Source of the DNA: Candidatus Thermoplasmatota archaeon
GTDB taxonomy: Archaea > Thermoplasmatota > E2 > UBA202 > DSCA01
Direction: 5' to 3'
Assembly (NCBI GenBank): GCA_034660695.1
Contig: JAYEJS010000075.1
Location: 1 to 34,003 of the forward strand
DNA length: 34,003 nt
Shown piece by piece: positions 3,063 to 13,013 of this stretch. Positions within the stretch are counted from its first letter, which is position 1. Every line of letters begins with the position of its first letter. Both the position numbers and the translations under genes were made by a program. The notes below the pieces were generated by a model. The model searched no databases. It was not told the DNA's origin and worked only from the letters and a program-made list of their open reading frames with translations.

Positions 3063-5255
3063 CTAACTGGAAGTCCACAAAATATTATTCTCCATCAACA
3101 GGGAAAGGAATTCATTCAGCCTCTCGAACAGCAATTGAAACAATTTTGGATAGTATAGGGGCGTTGATACTTCTAATGGATCAGACCATGCGCTCTCGGC
3201 ACCGTATAAATCCATGGCTTTTACTTTTATTTCGTAATTCCCTCTCTTATCCCACGTATGTGATGCGTTTACCTCTCCACCAGAATCATATGGGCCAATC
3301 CAGCCCGTATTTGTTCCGTCCCCCCAATCAAACATATAATAAATTTGATCGCCGTCGGGATCAACAGAAGATGTGGTATATCCATATTCCTTCCATCTTT
3401 TGCCGGAAGTTGGGCCAGTGGGTTTTTCCGGCTTATTCGGCGGCTTATTTTCATCTGGCGACTGTATTGCGACTTGCAGGGAAGGATCGCCCAATGGCTC
3501 CCACTCTTCTACAGTCTTGTAGTCGAGCTTATCCATGCTGCTGCCAAATCTATTTACATATTTGTTTATTGTTTCCTTCCATATCTCACCAAAGGTTTCA
3601 GCACCACCTGCATATGACCTAAAAGAATTCAGTTCCATAAGACCGCAGAGTCTTTGAACAGTGCTTCTGCCGTCATAGCCCCATCCGAGCCCGGTGTTGC
3701 CGCAGACTGCGATTCCGCCCCCGTCCGGATTTGATAAAAATGCCCAGCCAAAACAATTCATGCTAAATTTGCAGTTAGAACATACATTTAAAATAACGAT
3801 GGGCAACTTATCTCCATTCACAAGTGAATTGATATTTCTTATTTTATATCCTCCATAAGGCAACCATACTTTATCTTTTCCATGTGGATGTGTAACCCAA
3901 CTGCCTGGGCTGCCGTGCCCGGAAAAATCGATGAATCCTGCCCCTTCATACAGCGCATGGTCTATATTTGCAGGAGAATCTATTTTGTTATTAGAAGCCC
4001 ATAATTTTGTGGGGTTGAAATTTCCCATAATATCCAACACTTTTTGATTGGCATACTCCCCCTCATCAATGTTATCATCGTCACCGGGAAATGTATCTCC
4101 CCCGCATACGATAATATTTTTAAACCACGGCTTCTCATAGGCCTCCATATTTTCATGGGATATTATTTTGTTCACCACCACCGTAACTTCCTCGTTGGTA
4201 CTGCAGGCAGCCCTACCAATGAATACATCGGGATATAAGTCCACAAAATCTATCTCATTTTCATCATATTCCCCGAATTTGTCATTCCCATTTGAATCCC
4301 AGCTAACAAAATTACCATCCGAATCATAAATGTCAGCATAGTAAAGATCGCTTATGTAACTGCTCTCCTCCCCATCTTTAACGTAGGCACGTCTAACCGG
4401 CAATTTTTCCGAGTTTCCAACAAGCATTACATAATCTATACCCCATTCTTCTACTGCATTTTTAATGAAATATTTTATCTTCTCTGCGTCATCCCTGCCC
4501 CGAACGGTGAAATAATTGCTATTATAGATTTCATCAAGGGAAACGAGCATGGTTTTTACGTCATAGCTTTCCTTATGCTCTATCAATGGCTGCAGAGCAT
4601 CGCTGAACTCAGATGGCGATACAATGAGCAGATCGTAAGCATCAGCAAAAAGCGGCTGTATCGACTCTTCATAGCTGATTTTTATTTTGATATTGGTTGC
4701 ATATTGCAGGATATTCAATGCCGGCAAATATCTCACTGGGTAGACACTGACGGATAGAAACGTCACACGTTCTCCGTTATCTATTCCGCCACCAGTTCTG
4801 TAATAACACCATCTTTCTGGATAGGGGGCAGTACTGCCATATACTCCCTCGTTTTCAACTACCTTTTTGGGAGAATATTTGCCATCAAGCAATATAGGTT
4901 CTGGAGCAGGTTCAATTTTCTTATCCAGTTTCATTGTTCTAATAGCCAGTGGTATACATTCCACTCCAAGTATCTTTGTTCCGAGTGGGAACGTTAGTAC
5001 GGTTGAATGAACGGGCAGGATGGGTTCGCTGGCAACCAGTGTGGAATTTGCCTCTTTTACATTTACAGCCACATAGTTTTCATTGCTGCTCACAGTAGGC
5101 CTGGAAAAACTTAATGAAATTTCAGTAATAACATTCACATTTCCAACGCCCGCCTTTCCGGCATTATATACCCCAGCTATTCCACCACTGCTAAAAAGTA
5201 ATATCGCTACCACCAGCATAACAGCGACTTTTGTCTTTTCTGTTTTTACTGCCAT
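3063..5255 (-). CDS. Secreted gingipain-like C25 cysteine peptidase with C-terminal PKD domain
   Basis: The 730-residue protein has a basic N-terminus and hydrophobic signal segment (residues 8-30), a propeptide-like region to about residue 200, and the C25 catalytic fold at about 205-600. The catalytic His447 sits in FSGHGSPGSW and Cys492 in LNVCSN. The LGDPSLQV motif at 588-595 is typical of the end of C25 catalytic domains. A PKD domain follows (FDWGDG at 642-647, HTW near 666). The last 30 residues are short and amphipathic (FQLLFERLNEFLSLLM), possibly a surface-sorting or anchoring tail, which is inference. A TATA box at 5271-5283 lies about 25 nt before the ATG, suggesting a leaderless transcript. 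It neighbours another secreted cysteine peptidase of an unrelated family. Confidence 0.9.
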   Translation of the reverse strand: MAVKTEKTKVAVMLVVAILLFSSGGIAGVYNAGKAGVGNVNVITEISLSFSRPTVSSNENYVAVNVKEANSTLVASEPILPVHSTVLTFPLGTKILGVECIPLAIRTMKLDKKIEPAPEPILLDGKYSPKKVVENEGVYGSTAPYPERWCYYRTGGGIDNGERVTFLSVSVYPVRYLPALNILQYATNIKIKISYEESIQPLFADAYDLLIVSPSEFSDALQPLIEHKESYDVKTMLVSLDEIYNSNYFTVRGRDDAEKIKYFIKNAVEEWGIDYVMLVGNSEKLPVRRAYVKDGEESSYISDLYYADIYDSDGNFVSWDSNGNDKFGEYDENEIDFVDLYPDVFIGRAACSTNEEVTVVVNKIISHENMEAYEKPWFKNIIVCGGDTFPGDDDNIDEGEYANQKVLDIMGNFNPTKLWASNNKIDSPANIDHALYEGAGFIDFSGHGSPGSWVTHPHGKDKVWLPYGGYKIRNINSLVNGDKLPIVILNVCSNCKFSMNCFGWAFLSNPDGGGIAVCGNTGLGWGYDGRSTVQRLCGLMELNSFRSYAGGAETFGEIWKETINKYVNRFGSSMDKLDYKTVEEWEPLGDPSLQVAIQSPDENKPPNKPEKPTGPTSGKRWKEYGYTTSSVDPDGDQIYYMFDWGDGTNTGWIGPYDSGGEVNASHTWDKRGNYEIKVKAMDLYGAESAWSDPLEVSTPLYYPKLFQLLFERLNEFLSLLMENNILWTSS

Positions 5256-6871: not shown

Positions 6872-7650
6872 ATGAAAAAATTCTCCTTACAATTAGGGAT
6901 GTTCTCGCTGCAGTAGCCATAGTGGGCATAATAATCACTGCATTATGGGCATACACAGGCCAGTTCCCCGATACGCCGATGGTTGTCGTTACCTCCGGCT
7001 CGATGATGCATGACAATGCCCCTTACGGAAAGATTGGGACGATAGACCCCGGAGACCTAGTTCTGGTGAAAAAAATTTCCAGCAGGGATGGCATAACAGT
7101 AAGAGGTGAAAGTAGCAATCCTGCAACAGGCCACAGGACATACAGCGATTACGGGGATGTAATAATTTATTATCCAATGGGAAATAGGGATAGAACGCCG
7201 ATCATACACCGCGCCATATGCTGGGTTGAGTATAAAGGAGGAAAATATACGGTAAGGGAATACGGAATAGAAGATGCATCGGTAATATCCATACCAGAAC
7301 TCCACATATCTGGCTATAAGCCCATGAACAGCGGATTTATAACGAAGGGTGATAATAACGAATTGCCAGACCAGTATCCCAGCGGGGGGATATGTGCACA
7401 GCCCGTAAAGCCGGAGTGGATTATCGGGAAGGCGAGAGGTGAACTGCCCTGGTTTGGAATGATAAAATTGATGATAGCAGGCAATCAAGAAGTGAATGCC
7501 GAGAATGGATGGGTAAAGGTGGGAAAGGCTGTAGCCCCTAAAGATATATGGGTCTGTCTTGGCCTCTCATTAGTTGCTATTTCAGCCATACCCATTTCAC
7601 TGGATGCCTACGAATATTACCGGAAAAAAAAAGATTCGGAGAGCCTATAA
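6868..7650 (+). CDS. Archaeal signal peptidase I (Sec11-like, S26B)
   Basis: The 260-residue membrane protein has an N-terminal TM helix (about residues 12-30) and a second near the C-terminus (about 227-247). The catalytic Ser45 lies in VVTSGSM, and His114 in TPIIHRA is the S26B general base that replaces the bacterial lysine. Acidic residues sit in [13 protein letters not shown] (Asp162/Asp168). It should cleave signal peptides of exported proteins such as the secreted peptidases in this window. It overlaps the deaminase gene by 4 nt, and its 3' end overlaps the convergent orc1/cdc6 gene by 6 nt. Confidence 0.92.
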
Positions 7651-8880
7651 TAAACGCGATTGTATTTTAAGTTTTAAACTTTTTAAGTCGGGAAGATCTG
7701 GTATAATGTCATCTTTTGACAATATTTTCTCTATCTTCCTTATGGGCGTGGAAACCTGTATTTCTTTTGTCCTTCCATACCTGCCCTTCGAAATAACTCT
7801 GGCGGTTATGATGCCCAGCATGTCCAGTTCCGATATCAAATCTGCTATCCTCCTTTGCGTCAGAATATCCATCCCTGCCTTCATGCAAAGCTGCTTGTAG
7901 ACATTATAGATGTCTCCCGTATTCGGAGGAACATCAAATATCTGGTCTCCGATAACAGCGGCCATGAGAACCATTTTGGACTGTGCGGGCAGTGTGGACA
8001 CAACTTCCTTGACCCTGTCGATTTCTATTTTGTTAACGGCCAGCCTTACATGTTCCTCCAGTATTTTATTTTCTCCAGAGCGGTCAGCGATTTCAGCGGA
8101 CACACGCAGCAGGTCCAGCGCCCGCCTTGCGTCGCCATGCTCCTGCGCCGCCAGGGCCGAACATAGGGGTATTACCGATTCATCAAGAACATTTTCTTTG
8201 AATGCAATTTTCGCCCTCTCCCCGAGAATATTTTCTAGCTGGTTTGCCGCATAAGGGGGAAAAATCATATTTTCCTCGCCGAGAGACGACTTAACCCTCG
8301 GGTCAAGAAATTCGGTGAACTTCAGATCATTTGATATTCCTATCAGGGATGTCTTTGCCTTTTGCAGACAGCTGTTCATGCGAGAGAGGTTATAAAGCAC
8401 CTCGTCCCCTTTCAACTTGTCCACTTCGTCAAGGACGATTATCACAACGCTCTCACTGTTATCTATTCGCTTTACCAATTTTGAATAAACCTCATCCGTC
8501 GGCCAGCCCGTAAATGGAATGCGCTCCGACCAGTCTTCCATAAAATGATTTGCTATATTCTGCAAAACCCTGTACTGGGTGTCAACTATCTCACAATTAA
8601 TGTATACGAAATGTGTAACCCTGTTCAATTCCGAGCCTTTTATGGACAAACGTTTGCCAACATATCTTGTCACTGCAGTCTTACCCGTACCTGTCTTCCC
8701 ATAAATAAATACGTTGGAAGGCGTTTCTCCCTTCAACGCCGGCACGAGCACGGAAGCCAATTCGTCTATATTTTTCTCCCTGTGAGGCAATATATCAGGC
8801 ACATATGATGGACGCAAAACTTCTTTATTTTTAAATATATTGCTGGATTTCAGTAAACTTTTGAATATGTCATCATTCAT
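7645..8880 (-). CDS. cdc6: Replication initiator Orc1/Cdc6
   Basis: The 411-residue protein is an AAA+ ATPase with Walker A GKTGTGKT (61-68), Walker B IIVLDEVDKL (about 147-156) and the following sensor regions. A C-terminal winged-helix part includes IYNVYKQLCMKAGMDILTQRRIADLISEL. The length and order match archaeal Orc1/Cdc6, which binds origin repeats and loads MCM. GGGGG lies just upstream of the ATG, and there is a TATA-like TTAAATAAAC at 8910-8919. The adjacent 200 bp lacks an obvious set of origin recognition boxes, so I do not call an origin. Confidence 0.95.
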   Translation of the reverse strand: MNDDIFKSLLKSSNIFKNKEVLRPSYVPDILPHREKNIDELASVLVPALKGETPSNVFIYGKTGTGKTAVTRYVGKRLSIKGSELNRVTHFVYINCEIVDTQYRVLQNIANHFMEDWSERIPFTGWPTDEVYSKLVKRIDNSESVVIIVLDEVDKLKGDEVLYNLSRMNSCLQKAKTSLIGISNDLKFTEFLDPRVKSSLGEENMIFPPYAANQLENILGERAKIAFKENVLDESVIPLCSALAAQEHGDARRALDLLRVSAEIADRSGENKILEEHVRLAVNKIEIDRVKEVVSTLPAQSKMVLMAAVIGDQIFDVPPNTGDIYNVYKQLCMKAGMDILTQRRIADLISELDMLGIITARVISKGRYGRTKEIQVSTPIRKIEKILSKDDIIPDLPDLKSLKLKIQSRLL

Positions 8881-10103: not shown

Positions 10104-10171
10104 CAACAAAAGTTATTTTAATGATGATTACTTGGTAATTATTGAATATAGTGTCCGATAAAAAATTAAAA

Positions 10172-10657
10172 ATGAAAGATCTAATTTTAGTCTCCAATAG
10201 AGAGCTATATATTCAAGAAAAGACGGGAAAGGGCATTAGATGTAGGAAGGCTACTGGAGGATTGATCTCCGCTCTAGATTCGGTAATGCAATTATGCAAT
10301 GGATTGTGGATAGCGTGGGGAAGTAGCAAGGGCGATTTTACCACCGGCAATACAACAGAAGTTCCTCCCGAAGATCCAAAATATAAGTTGAAAAGGATCA
10401 AATTGTCGGAGGACGAAGTTGAAAATTATTATCGAGGATTCTCAAATCGCACTTTATGGCCATTATTTCATTTATTCATTGATAAAACAATATTTAGCAA
10501 AAAATATTGGAGATACTACCAAAGAGTGAATTCCAAATTCGCGACCACTGTTTTGGAAGAAAACAAGAATTTTATCTGGATTCGTCCTTACCATCATTCT
10601 TGTTGTATTAATTTTGTAAATTTTTTGCTAACAAAAATTCATTTAATATTTGCGTAA
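10172..10657 (+). pseudogene. otsA: Truncated trehalose-6-phosphate synthase (OtsA, GT20) remnant
   Basis: The first 130 or so residues match GT20 trehalose-phosphate synthase well: LILVSNRELY, TGGLISALDSVM, GLWIAWGS, VPPEDPKYKLKRIKLS, VENYYRGFSNRTLWPLFH and YWRYYQRVNSKFA. At the conserved HDYH motif the sequence reads IRPYHHSCC, so the His-Asp pair is replaced by Arg-Pro. The similarity then stops, and a short unrelated AT-rich tail ends at 10657. Full-length OtsA is about 450-500 residues; the C-terminal UDP-glucose-binding half is missing. A TTG at 10142 would add ten residues; the ATG at 10172 matches the family start. The gene is almost certainly inactive. Confidence 0.85.
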
Positions 10658-10757: not shown

Positions 10758-11549
10758 GTGGGCGAGGAATTACTGAAAGTTGGTGCTATTGACGAGGATA
10801 AATACGAGAGGTCGAAACGTTTGGGATGGTTTAAGCTAGATAAGGTAAAAAAGGCAAAGGTGCTTGTGGTAGGTGCCGGAGCCCTTGGAAACGAGACGTG
10901 CAAGGATCTCGTGCTTTCAGGATTCAGGAATATCACGCTCGTCGACATGGATTACGTAGTTATGTCGAATTTGAACAGGTGCATCTTTTTTTCGGATGGA
11001 GATGCAAGAAAAAAGAGGAATAAGGCAGAGGTTGTGGCGGAGAAATTAAAAATGCTCGACGAATCTGTTAACGTACGTGCATTTGTTAGCAAAATTGAGG
11101 ATTTTCCAGATGATTTCATTCCATCACATGACATAGTCCTCGGCTGTCTGGATAACATTTTGGCAAGGCTCCATGTAAACGCTCATTCATATTTTCACAA
11201 TGTGCCCTACATCGACGGAGCCACACGGGGCCTCATCGGCAAAGTTCAGATAGTAATCCCTCCAGAAACCAGTTGCCTTGAATGCGGGATGAATTCAACA
11301 CACAACAAAATCAGAAATTTAAGATACAGCTGCACGGGCAGGAACATCTCATTTTTTGAGCCGAAATTAGCGGCCGATGTGAATACAACAAGCATCGTAT
11401 CGGCAGTCCAGGTTCAGGAAGCTTTAAAGATTGTGCACGGGAGGGACAACCTCATAAAAAATATTTTTTATTACGATGGAAACAGAAACTTCTCGGATGT
11501 TATGGAATTGCCAATAAATCCTGCATGTCCGCATCATGACAAACGATAA
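10758..11549 (+). CDS. E1-like ubiquitin-activating enzyme (ThiF/MoeB superfamily)
   Basis: The 263-residue protein adenylates the C-terminus of a ubiquitin-like modifier. Visible motifs are the nucleotide loop GAGALGNE (39-46), DMDYVVMSNLNR (63-74, with Arg74), Lys89 in NKAEVV, and LDNILAR (Asp132, Arg137) followed by Asn141. A zinc site is suggested by CLEC (173/176) and CPHH (257-260). Cys192 in RYSCTGR, ahead of the TTSIVSAVQVQEALKIV helix, is the best candidate thioester cysteine. The protein is compact and has no UFD domain, like minimal archaeal E1s. Translation starts at GTG. It is followed by a ubiquitin-like gene, an E2 and a JAMM peptidase, which favours conjugation over thiamine or molybdopterin sulfur transfer. 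Confidence 0.9.
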   Translation: MGEELLKVGAIDEDKYERSKRLGWFKLDKVKKAKVLVVGAGALGNETCKDLVLSGFRNITLVDMDYVVMSNLNRCIFFSDGDARKKRNKAEVVAEKLKMLDESVNVRAFVSKIEDFPDDFIPSHDIVLGCLDNILARLHVNAHSYFHNVPYIDGATRGLIGKVQIVIPPETSCLECGMNSTHNKIRNLRYSCTGRNISFFEPKLAADVNTTSIVSAVQVQEALKIVHGRDNLIKNIFYYDGNRNFSDVMELPINPACPHHDKR

Positions 11550-11558
11550 ATATTTAAG
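11546..11558 (+). promoter_or_regulatory. TATA box of the ubiquitin-like gene, overlapping the E1 stop codon
   Basis: ATAAATATTTAAG begins inside the last codons of the E1-like gene. It predicts a start site at about 11578, a few nt before the ATG at 11585. This suggests that the modifier, E2 and JAMM genes can be transcribed separately from the E1 gene. Confidence 0.55.
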
Positions 11559-11584
11559 TTATTCCCCAATTTTGGACTGATAAA

Positions 11585-11824
11585 ATGAAACTATCAGTAA
11601 AAGACGCCGAGACGGGAAATAAAATCAGTATGGATGTTGAGGGCGATAACACGGTAGAAGAAATTGTGGAAAGCGCTGCCAACTACTGGAATAAGGACCC
11701 GGGCGCATATGTCGTAAGGTTCGGGAAAAAAGTGCTTGGGGGACAGACAAGTATTGATGGAACAAAACTGCAGGATGGGGACGTTGTTGAGTTAATTCCT
11801 GACCCAGAAGGCGGCTATTGGTGA
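11585..11824 (+). CDS. Ubiquitin-like modifier (beta-grasp) with GG-YW C-terminus
   Basis: This 79-residue protein has a beta-grasp pattern: strand LSVKDAETGNKISMDV, helix TVEEIVESAANYW, strands YVVRFGKKVL, then the typical DGTKLQDGDVVELIPDPEGG end. The diglycine is at 76-77 and is followed by Tyr-Trp, so the precursor would need two residues removed before an E1 can activate it. That resembles eukaryotic pro-ubiquitin and the archaeal pro-ubiquitin processed by an Rpn11-like enzyme in Caldiarchaeum. It lies between E1-like and E2-like genes. An alternative role as a SAMP-like sulfur carrier is less likely given the E2 next door. Confidence 0.9.
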   Translation: MKLSVKDAETGNKISMDVEGDNTVEEIVESAANYWNKDPGAYVVRFGKKVLGGQTSIDGTKLQDGDVVELIPDPEGGYW

Positions 11825-11830
11825 TGAAAA

Positions 11831-12391
11831 TTGCCCCTCCCTAAAGACCTCCTCGTATCCAGATTGAAAAACGAGCTTCGGGAATGCAGGAAAGATTTTA
11901 GACACTATTTTTCTTTATCTGACCCAGATTTTAATAAATTCCCTGTGAGTATAATGGTTACGCTTGTGAATACGCCCGGCCCGATAATGGAAGGAAACAA
12001 AATAAGAAGCAGGTACAATCACAAGTTACAGATTACCATAACCGAGGATTATCCGTTCCAGACGCCGATAGTCAGATGGCGGAGTAAGATTTTTCACCCG
12101 AATATAATGCTCCCCTCTGATGGAGGGTATATATGCACCAAGTTGCTAGATGAATGGAGCTTCCGGTCAAATCTTCCGGCTTTTATAAGGGGCATCGAAT
12201 CGCTGCTTTTGAATCCCAATCCCGATAACCCATACGATAATGATACCTGTACCAAGGCTGCCGAGTATTTCAACAAACACCCGTATAATCCGCCGTTGCC
12301 GGACAAATCAAGGGCCGGACATAAAAAGCCGTTAATTATTGGAGAAGAAGAGAATGGTACGGATAACAGGCGAAAAAAGAAAAAATCCTAG
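11831..12391 (+). CDS. E2-like ubiquitin-conjugating enzyme (UBC fold)
   Basis: The 186-residue protein shows the UBC order: helix 1 (residues 5-23), the strand region HKLQITITEDYPFQTPIVRW, the HPNI motif (89-92), catalytic Cys102 in GGYICTKLLDEWS, Trp109, and LLLNPNPDNPYDNDTCTKAAEYF. HPN followed by Cys about ten residues later is the E2 active-site hallmark. A basic tail (RRKKKKS) ends the protein. A stop at 11825-11827 closes the frame just upstream, so the start must be the TTG at 11831, six nt after the modifier's stop and preceded by GGTGAT. The 3' end overlaps the JAMM gene. The role would be transfer of the activated modifier to targets. Confidence 0.9.
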   Translation: MPLPKDLLVSRLKNELRECRKDFRHYFSLSDPDFNKFPVSIMVTLVNTPGPIMEGNKIRSRYNHKLQITITEDYPFQTPIVRWRSKIFHPNIMLPSDGGYICTKLLDEWSFRSNLPAFIRGIESLLLNPNPDNPYDNDTCTKAAEYFNKHPYNPPLPDKSRAGHKKPLIIGEEENGTDNRRKKKKS

Positions 12392-13013
12392 AGAGCATAG
12401 ACCTCCAGAAAACATATTGTTCGACTACGCCCCCGAAAAAAGCGGTGATGCCCTAAAAAATTTTGTATCACAGCGATTGTATAATCTCGGCATTGAAAAA
12501 ATTGACAGCGATTTCGTGACGAAAGAAAAAGAAGTTGCCACATACTACGACAAAAAACTTAATCTTTATATTGAGAGCCATGCAGTCGATGAAATACTGG
12601 AACACTGTGCCGTGATGGCCAACAAAGGGCTGGAGGCGCTGGGTTTTTTGGCCGGAGATTTGTACAGATGGAATGGAGAAGATTTCTCTGTCATCCATGA
12701 TATTGTTACGGGCAAATTGAATTCCACTCCAGTATCTGTAAAATTTAAAAAAGATGCATTCGAAAATCTTTTTGACCAGCTTGATGAAATTGGGTATGAT
12801 TACATTCTTATCGGTTGGTACCATTCCCATCCAGGATATACGAGTTTTATGTCCCCTGTTGACATGGATACGCAGAGCAGAATGTTTAATAAGCCATTTC
12901 ACGTGGCACTGGTCGCCGACCCCATAAATATGGAATTGAAAGCTTTCCGTATTGTAGACGAAAGGTGCATAGAGATACCGTATGCTGTCTTTGAAGATAA
13001 CGATAGCATATAA
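12354..13013 (+). CDS. JAMM/MPN+ metalloprotease (Rpn11-like deubiquitinase)
   Basis: The 219-residue protein has a complete JAMM motif: Glu94 in GLEALGFLAGD, then HSHP with His157 and His159, Ser167, and Asp170 in FMSPVDMD (H-S-H-x7-S-x2-D). The wider context GWYHSHPGYTSFMSPVD closely resembles Rpn11. About 80 residues precede the MPN domain and have no recognised fold. The ATG at 12354 has GGAG about 10 nt upstream; a TTG at 12339 would add five residues. It overlaps the E2 gene by 38 nt, so the two are probably translationally coupled. Expected roles are trimming the modifier's GG-YW tail and removing it from conjugates. Confidence 0.93.
   Translation: MVRITGEKRKNPREHRPPENILFDYAPEKSGDALKNFVSQRLYNLGIEKIDSDFVTKEKEVATYYDKKLNLYIESHAVDEILEHCAVMANKGLEALGFLAGDLYRWNGEDFSVIHDIVTGKLNSTPVSVKFKKDAFENLFDQLDEIGYDYILIGWYHSHPGYTSFMSPVDMDTQSRMFNKPFHVALVADPINMELKAFRIVDERCIEIPYAVFEDNDSI

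Follow-up and report, generated by a model that had tools for sequence, protein, structure and literature searches.

A four-gene E1-Ubl-E2-JAMM locus conserved in Thermoplasmatota, a probable ubiquitin-like conjugation system without a dedicated RING ligase

The window, that is, the whole stretch of 34,003 nucleotides that was analysed, is an entire contig from a genome of 1.63 Mb that is 99.6% complete. Four consecutive genes on its + strand, at positions 10758–13013, encode an activating enzyme (E1), a ubiquitin-like modifier (Ubl), a conjugating enzyme (E2) and a JAMM peptidase (Table 1). The initial annotation had read these as four co-directional genes of one set, and the open reading frames are indeed present. 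The HMM searches that it had proposed assigned three of them to ThiF, UQ_con and JAB (E-values in Table 1), while the modifier gave a weak match to Pfam ubiquitin (0.0036, under the Pfam cut-off) and was identified by its AF2 model. The hallmark residues lie where they had been placed: Cys192 in the E1, HPN 89–91 and Cys102 in the E2, HSHx7SxxD in the JAMM, and GG followed by YW in the Ubl. These motifs are invariant or nearly so across 67–83 relatives, which rules out chance.

Table 1. Coordinates of the four genes and of the RING-like domain found in the genome. Positions refer to the window unless a contig is named.
Feature	Position	Strand	Remarks
E1, minimal single-domain activating enzyme	10758..11549	+	263 aa; ThiF 6.5e-52
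Ubl, ubiquitin-fold modifier	11585..11824	+	79 aa; ends in PDPEGG, then YW
E2 conjugating enzyme, UBC fold	11831..12391	+	TTG start; UQ_con 6.5e-16
JAMM, Rpn11-like (putative Ubl isopeptidase / precursor protease)	12354..13013	+	219 aa from ATG; JAB 8.3e-11
RING-like domain	G000:C20:44168-44320 (L156/L157)		C terminus of PKD-repeat protein

At the TTG start of the E2 the relatives open with MPLPKD. The JAMM open reading frame reaches upstream to a TTG at 12339, but the start is probably the ATG at 12354, because the JAMMs of the relatives open with MVKI or MVRI; from this ATG the gene overlaps the end of the E2 by 38 nt. A scan for sigma-70-type promoters, a model not applicable to archaea, gave no more matches than in shuffled sequence. 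The neighbours examined in the window were a metallo-beta-lactamase-fold protein, a truncated GT20, a zinc-ribbon protein, a methyltransferase and a DUF92 membrane protein. Genes for Orc1/Cdc6, AlaRS, MetRS, DnaG and POR subunits are found farther out. The truncated family-20 glycosyltransferase, located just upstream of the E1 (10142–10657), covers 171 aa of a 473-position model and is probably a pseudogene. Orc1/Cdc6 is found about 2 kb upstream of the E1 (7645–8880), and in one related genome (G006) it adjoins the E1 (L153 7679–9894). Also a gingipain-like C25 peptidase with a PKD domain and a C25 propeptide is present in the window (3063–5255).

The ThiF domain spans residues 26–258 of the 263 residues of the E1, with GxGxxG at 39–44, DxD at 63–65 and Cys192 as the candidate catalytic cysteine. 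Judged from the sequence only, both the ATP site and the candidate thioester cysteine are present. Cys192 was invariant in all 67 relatives, and so were C173, C176, C257 and H260, which are probably zinc ligands. When the profile of the E1 relatives was compared with solved structures, the best matches were UBA1 (6e-40, a figure that sums over the two adenylation domains of the target) and UBA3 (9e-38), followed by MoeB (5e-30). Structure models were made of the E2 and the Ubl (AF2), and the E1 and JAMM were assigned by sequence profiles.

The Ubl model shows a ubiquitin fold (pLDDT 91.0). Foldseek placed ubiquitin first and SUMO and other ubiquitin-like proteins after it, with TM-scores of about 0.82–0.86 and 22–25% identity to the ubiquitins. 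The tail is strongly conserved: P72-D73-P74-G76-G77 (motif PDPxGG) was invariant in 75 of 75 relatives and E75 was present in 72 of them. No residues follow the Gly-Gly in 35 of these 75 modifiers, one or two follow in 27, and three to fifteen in 13. Ubiquitin itself ends in LRLRGG, and the acidic tail PDPEGG is a reversal of charge in comparison to it, predicting an E1 with a specificity of its own. The last Lys or Arg lies 12–28 residues upstream of the Gly-Gly end, which suggests that the conjugates would escape standard trypsin/diGly proteomics.

Whether the E2-like protein has a UBC fold had been set beforehand as a possible refutation of the annotation. The AF2 model is a UBC fold (pLDDT 88.9), and the Foldseek matches listed were E2 enzymes throughout (probability 1.00, TM by target up to 0.72). 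Among solved structures the profile of the E2 relatives was nearest to UBE2A/Rad6 (2e-14), and at E ≤ 1 the E2 matched UQ_con, the other E2-type Pfam models giving only weak UEV/RWD matches. The HPN motif (H89-P90-N91) and the catalytic Cys102 were invariant in all 83 relatives. A second cysteine, Cys140, is also present in 83 of 83 and sits where the last helix of the model begins.

In the JAMM, residues E99, H162, H164, S172 and D175 (numbered from the TTG at 12339) were invariant in 80 of 80 relatives and S163 was found in 78. The profile of these relatives matched Rpn11 (4e-25), CsRpn11 of Caldiarchaeum (2e-24) and CSN5 (8e-20). The JAMM gene is kept at most loci whose Ubl ends exactly at GG; being retained with both tailed and GG-ending modifiers, it is therefore not there for maturation alone, and removal of conjugates is likely to be its constant role.

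The size of the E1, which is that of MoeB, and weak ThiS/MoaD matches at the C terminus of the modifier would also be expected of a sulphur-carrier pathway of the SAMP/Urm1/MoaD kind, to which the E2 and JAMM were incidental. Such a pathway is very improbable here, as the E2 is canonical, has an invariant active site and is inherited together with the E1, and the fold of the Ubl is nearest to ubiquitin and SUMO. Furthermore, a separate ThiF-family E1 in the genome scores better, and the E1 of the locus reaches 69 bits against a SAMP-E1 cut-off of 450.

Searching the genomes of 84,980 species with an E2 alignment produced 120 relatives, of which 80 were kept as named loci. All these were labelled Thermoplasmata, Thermoplasmatota, Methanomassiliicoccales and kin, 'Euryarchaeota' or plain archaeon, and these names point to Thermoplasmatota as the host, in agreement with the euryarchaeal-type host supposed earlier. 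The E2 was detected in 16 of the 22 genomes of the same order (11 of the 12 good ones) and in 78 of 390 Thermoplasmatota genomes, 72 of these at E below 1e-30. A dedicated E1 was present in 67 of the 390, all of them among the 72 with a strong E2 (67/5/0/318; Fisher p 5e-70, kinship uncorrected); in five genomes with a strong E2 no dedicated E1 was detected. All four genes occur together in 55 of the 80 named loci, and the E1 is close by in 47 of the 63 loci that extend far enough, the E1 of one family (f2) being mostly located elsewhere in the genome. For E1, Ubl, E2 and JAMM the distances are correlated among the four proteins and also with the distances of ribosomal proteins (30 loci; rho 0.37–0.69, Mantel p 0.001), which fits long shared inheritance.

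The set is conserved across much of Thermoplasmatota, gut-type methanogens included. Outside this order, the majority of the class members sampled lack the E2, a patchy distribution from which it follows that loss or transfer took place. The locus had been described as unusual; it is not confined to one genome (78 of 390), and sets of this E3-less kind were partly foreseen as the 'JAMM-3' group (PMC6043591). Two E2 genes and one E1 were found in genomes G025, G037, G059 and G093, and some loci consist of Ubl-E2-JAMM or Ubl-E2 without an E1 (L085, L101). The extra E2 genes and the loci without E1 suggest a second modifier pathway using a shared E1.

In many loci TrpS and PheS are located upstream of the operon and eL18-uL13-uS9-RpoN downstream. 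The neighbours were counted in 80 loci (eL18 39, uL13 38, uS9 36, RpoN 33, TrpS 32, PheS 28), many of the remaining loci being cut by contig ends. Altogether, about half of the named loci have the operon near PheS/TrpS and/or eL18-uL13-uS9-RpoN, and three f2 loci have the ribosomal genes downstream but on the opposite strand. The annotated conserved neighbours comprise tRNA synthetases, TrmO, ribosomal proteins, RpoN and others. Both the neighbours in the window and these conserved flanks bear out the initial description of housekeeping surroundings with no RING gene alongside. A protein that gave no Pfam match directly follows the JAMM in 17 of the 80 loci; as it is limited to part of the family, it was rejected as a conserved fifth gene of the operon.

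The synteny with PheS/TrpS and eL18-uL13-uS9-RpoN argues for inherited core machinery rather than defence, and this is what the operon looks like in its genomic context. The opposite reading, an antiviral ubiquitin-like conjugation system of the Bil or type II CBASS kind, draws on the four activities being the same as in Bil, and the E1 matches the PADLOC E1-E2 models moderately (best 5.8e-14), as is expected of any ThiF-fold E1. The E2, however, matches UQ_con, its match to the PADLOC E2 reaching only 0.03, there is a single Ubl and a single-domain E1, and the housekeeping synteny is common across the phylum. A search of 72,556 plasmids gave no match, and among viral contigs there was a single short match (35% over 57 residues); a defence or mobile origin was rejected on these grounds, and an antiviral function has little to recommend it.

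No RING gene was found among the annotated conserved neighbours, and only the four genes make up the conserved cluster. A ligase could also be encoded at a distance, the set then belonging to a complete cascade of the Caldiarchaeum type with E1, E2 and E3. When the genome was searched with one RING model, the sole match, a weak one, was a C-terminal Cys/His domain in an 802-codon open frame for a PKD-repeat protein that is probably membrane-anchored (Table 1). Such a domain is present in 15 of the 22 genomes of the order, but it does not track the E2: both were found in 10 genomes, the E2 only in 6, the RING-like domain only in 5 and neither in 1. Common in the order but not following the E2 in its presence, the PKD-repeat protein was dismissed as the E3 of the operon. 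Also the E2 itself argues against a partner of this kind. In Caldiarchaeum, PxxPP in loop 4 and D/ExWSP in loop 7 of the E2 have been named as the motifs that contact the E3 (PMC5654768), and both RING-binding loops are degenerate family-wide in the present E2: at the PxxPP position P78 is found in 1 of 83 relatives, Lys or Thr replacing the first proline of PP in 81, and at the WSP position P111 is found in 1 of 83, with Phe instead in 76. The lack of a RING neighbour, the degenerate loops 4 and 7 and the RING-like domain not tracking the E2 together suggest that the E2 acts independently of an E3, and a Caldiarchaeum-like cascade with a distant ligase is unlikely.

Of the proteasome, the assembly contains an alpha subunit only (G000:C114, L155), apparently next to genes resembling SBDS and Rrp4. 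Two or more proteasome subunit matches were obtained in most relatives, and the missing beta gene is therefore probably due to an assembly gap; a proteasome link based on the alpha-only content was rejected for the same reason.

The reading preferred here is that the four genes form a working system of ubiquitin-like conjugation and deconjugation, inherited as a housekeeping trait and probably operating without a dedicated RING ligase, to which a probability of roughly 0.8 is given. It builds on the observed gene content, the predicted folds of E2 and Ubl, the invariant catalytic residues, the co-occurrence and the synteny. Under this reading, precursor trimming would come first, with the Rpn11-like JAMM removing the residues beyond Gly-Gly where they are present (YW here). 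In the thioester relay that we infer, the small MoeB-type E1 would adenylate the Gly-Gly end, load the modifier onto Cys192 and hand it over to the E2 at Cys102. From the E2 the modifier would go to lysines on target proteins, a step that probably needs no dedicated RING ligase, and the JAMM would subsequently strip it off. Rather than a mobile defence cassette, the system would be a housekeeping trait passed down in those lineages of Thermoplasmatota that possess it. Against this reading count the E1 without a ubiquitin-fold domain for E2 docking, the RING-like domains in this and related genomes, which make a ligase elsewhere possible, the five genomes that have a strong E2 but no detected dedicated E1, and the patchy distribution within the class.

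A simple ubiquitin-like system is thus probably part of the ordinary cell machinery in Thermoplasmatota. To our knowledge, an archaeal cascade with a true E2 has been reconstituted for Caldiarchaeum alone, its Asgard relatives being known from genomes. The Thermoplasmatota set would be a simpler, ligase-less version conserved over a large phylum. Among the members of this phylum are the Methanomassiliicoccales, of which enrichment cultures and also isolates exist, and therefore two questions can be tested in living cells: whether an E2 functions with a minimal E1 in the absence of an E3, and which role an archaeal ubiquitin-like tag has. More tentatively, much of Thermoplasmatota may have inherited an E3-independent ubiquitin system in which the E1 is MoeB-sized, the E2 of eukaryote type and the peptidase of Rpn11 type, and which is positioned with the translation machinery. 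This system might represent a living intermediate on the way from sulphur-carrier systems to the eukaryotic cascade and act on core cell functions.

The SAMP/UbaA/desampylase system of Euryarchaeota uses no E2. The present set shares with it a MoeB-sized E1 and a JAMM peptidase, but has an E2, and both its E1 and its JAMM fall far under the cut-offs of the SAMP-system models. In type II CBASS (Cap2/Cap3) E1, E2 and JAB peptidase are encoded in one bacterial operon without E3. Bil, as reviewed, is a bacterial operon of E1, E2, JAB peptidase and Ubl (PMC11354881). A single operon that encodes E1, E2 and JAB peptidase without E3 (and the Ubl too in Bil) is common to these and the present locus; Bil and CBASS, however, have a two-domain or fused E1, the tandem-domain BilA, E2s of different families and an antiviral role, whereas here the E1 has a single domain, the Ubl is single, the E2 belongs to UQ_con and the context is housekeeping.

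The E1-E2-RING cascade of Caldiarchaeum has been reconstituted (PMC5654768). With the operon of Candidatus Caldiarchaeum subterraneum and Asgard archaea the present one shares the clustering of a Ub-fold modifier, an E1, a canonical UBC E2 and an Rpn11-type JAMM (PMC5654768, PMC6043591), and in some members also the precursor tail after GG. It differs in lacking the adjacent RING-type E3 (srfp) and in the acidic modifier tail, PDPEGG. The E1 of Caldiarchaeum is reported to have a Cys domain and a C-terminal UBL domain, whereas the E1 here is one 263-aa domain without either, and the PxxPP and D/ExWSP motifs reported as conserved in the Caldiarchaeum E2 are both missing from the Thermoplasmatota E2. 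The architecture of the E1, the loop motifs of the E2 and the tail of the modifier thereby set the locus apart as a distinct lineage, as the initial annotation had suspected.

A literature search combining Methanomassiliicoccales or Thermoplasmatota with ubiquitin found no title or abstract describing the operon, most subscription papers and preprints being outside its scope. RING and UCH genes have been reported from one marine group II euryarchaeote by Grau-Bove et al. (PMC4327156). Fuchs et al. (2018) described a 'JAMM-3' group, nearer to Rpn11/CSN5 than to other eukaryotic JAMMs, in which JAMMs close to Rpn11 share operons with Ub, E1 and E2 but no E3; the main text neither names taxa nor treats anatomy, synteny or distribution (PMC6043591). 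By this published description the present operon, with a JAMM nearest to Rpn11/CSN5 together with Ub, E1 and E2 and no E3, resembles the group, which probably includes the Thermoplasmatota family. E3-less archaeal Ub-E1-E2-JAMM operons are already known as 'JAMM-3' (PMC6043591), and the Thermoplasmatota set is probably a variant of them.
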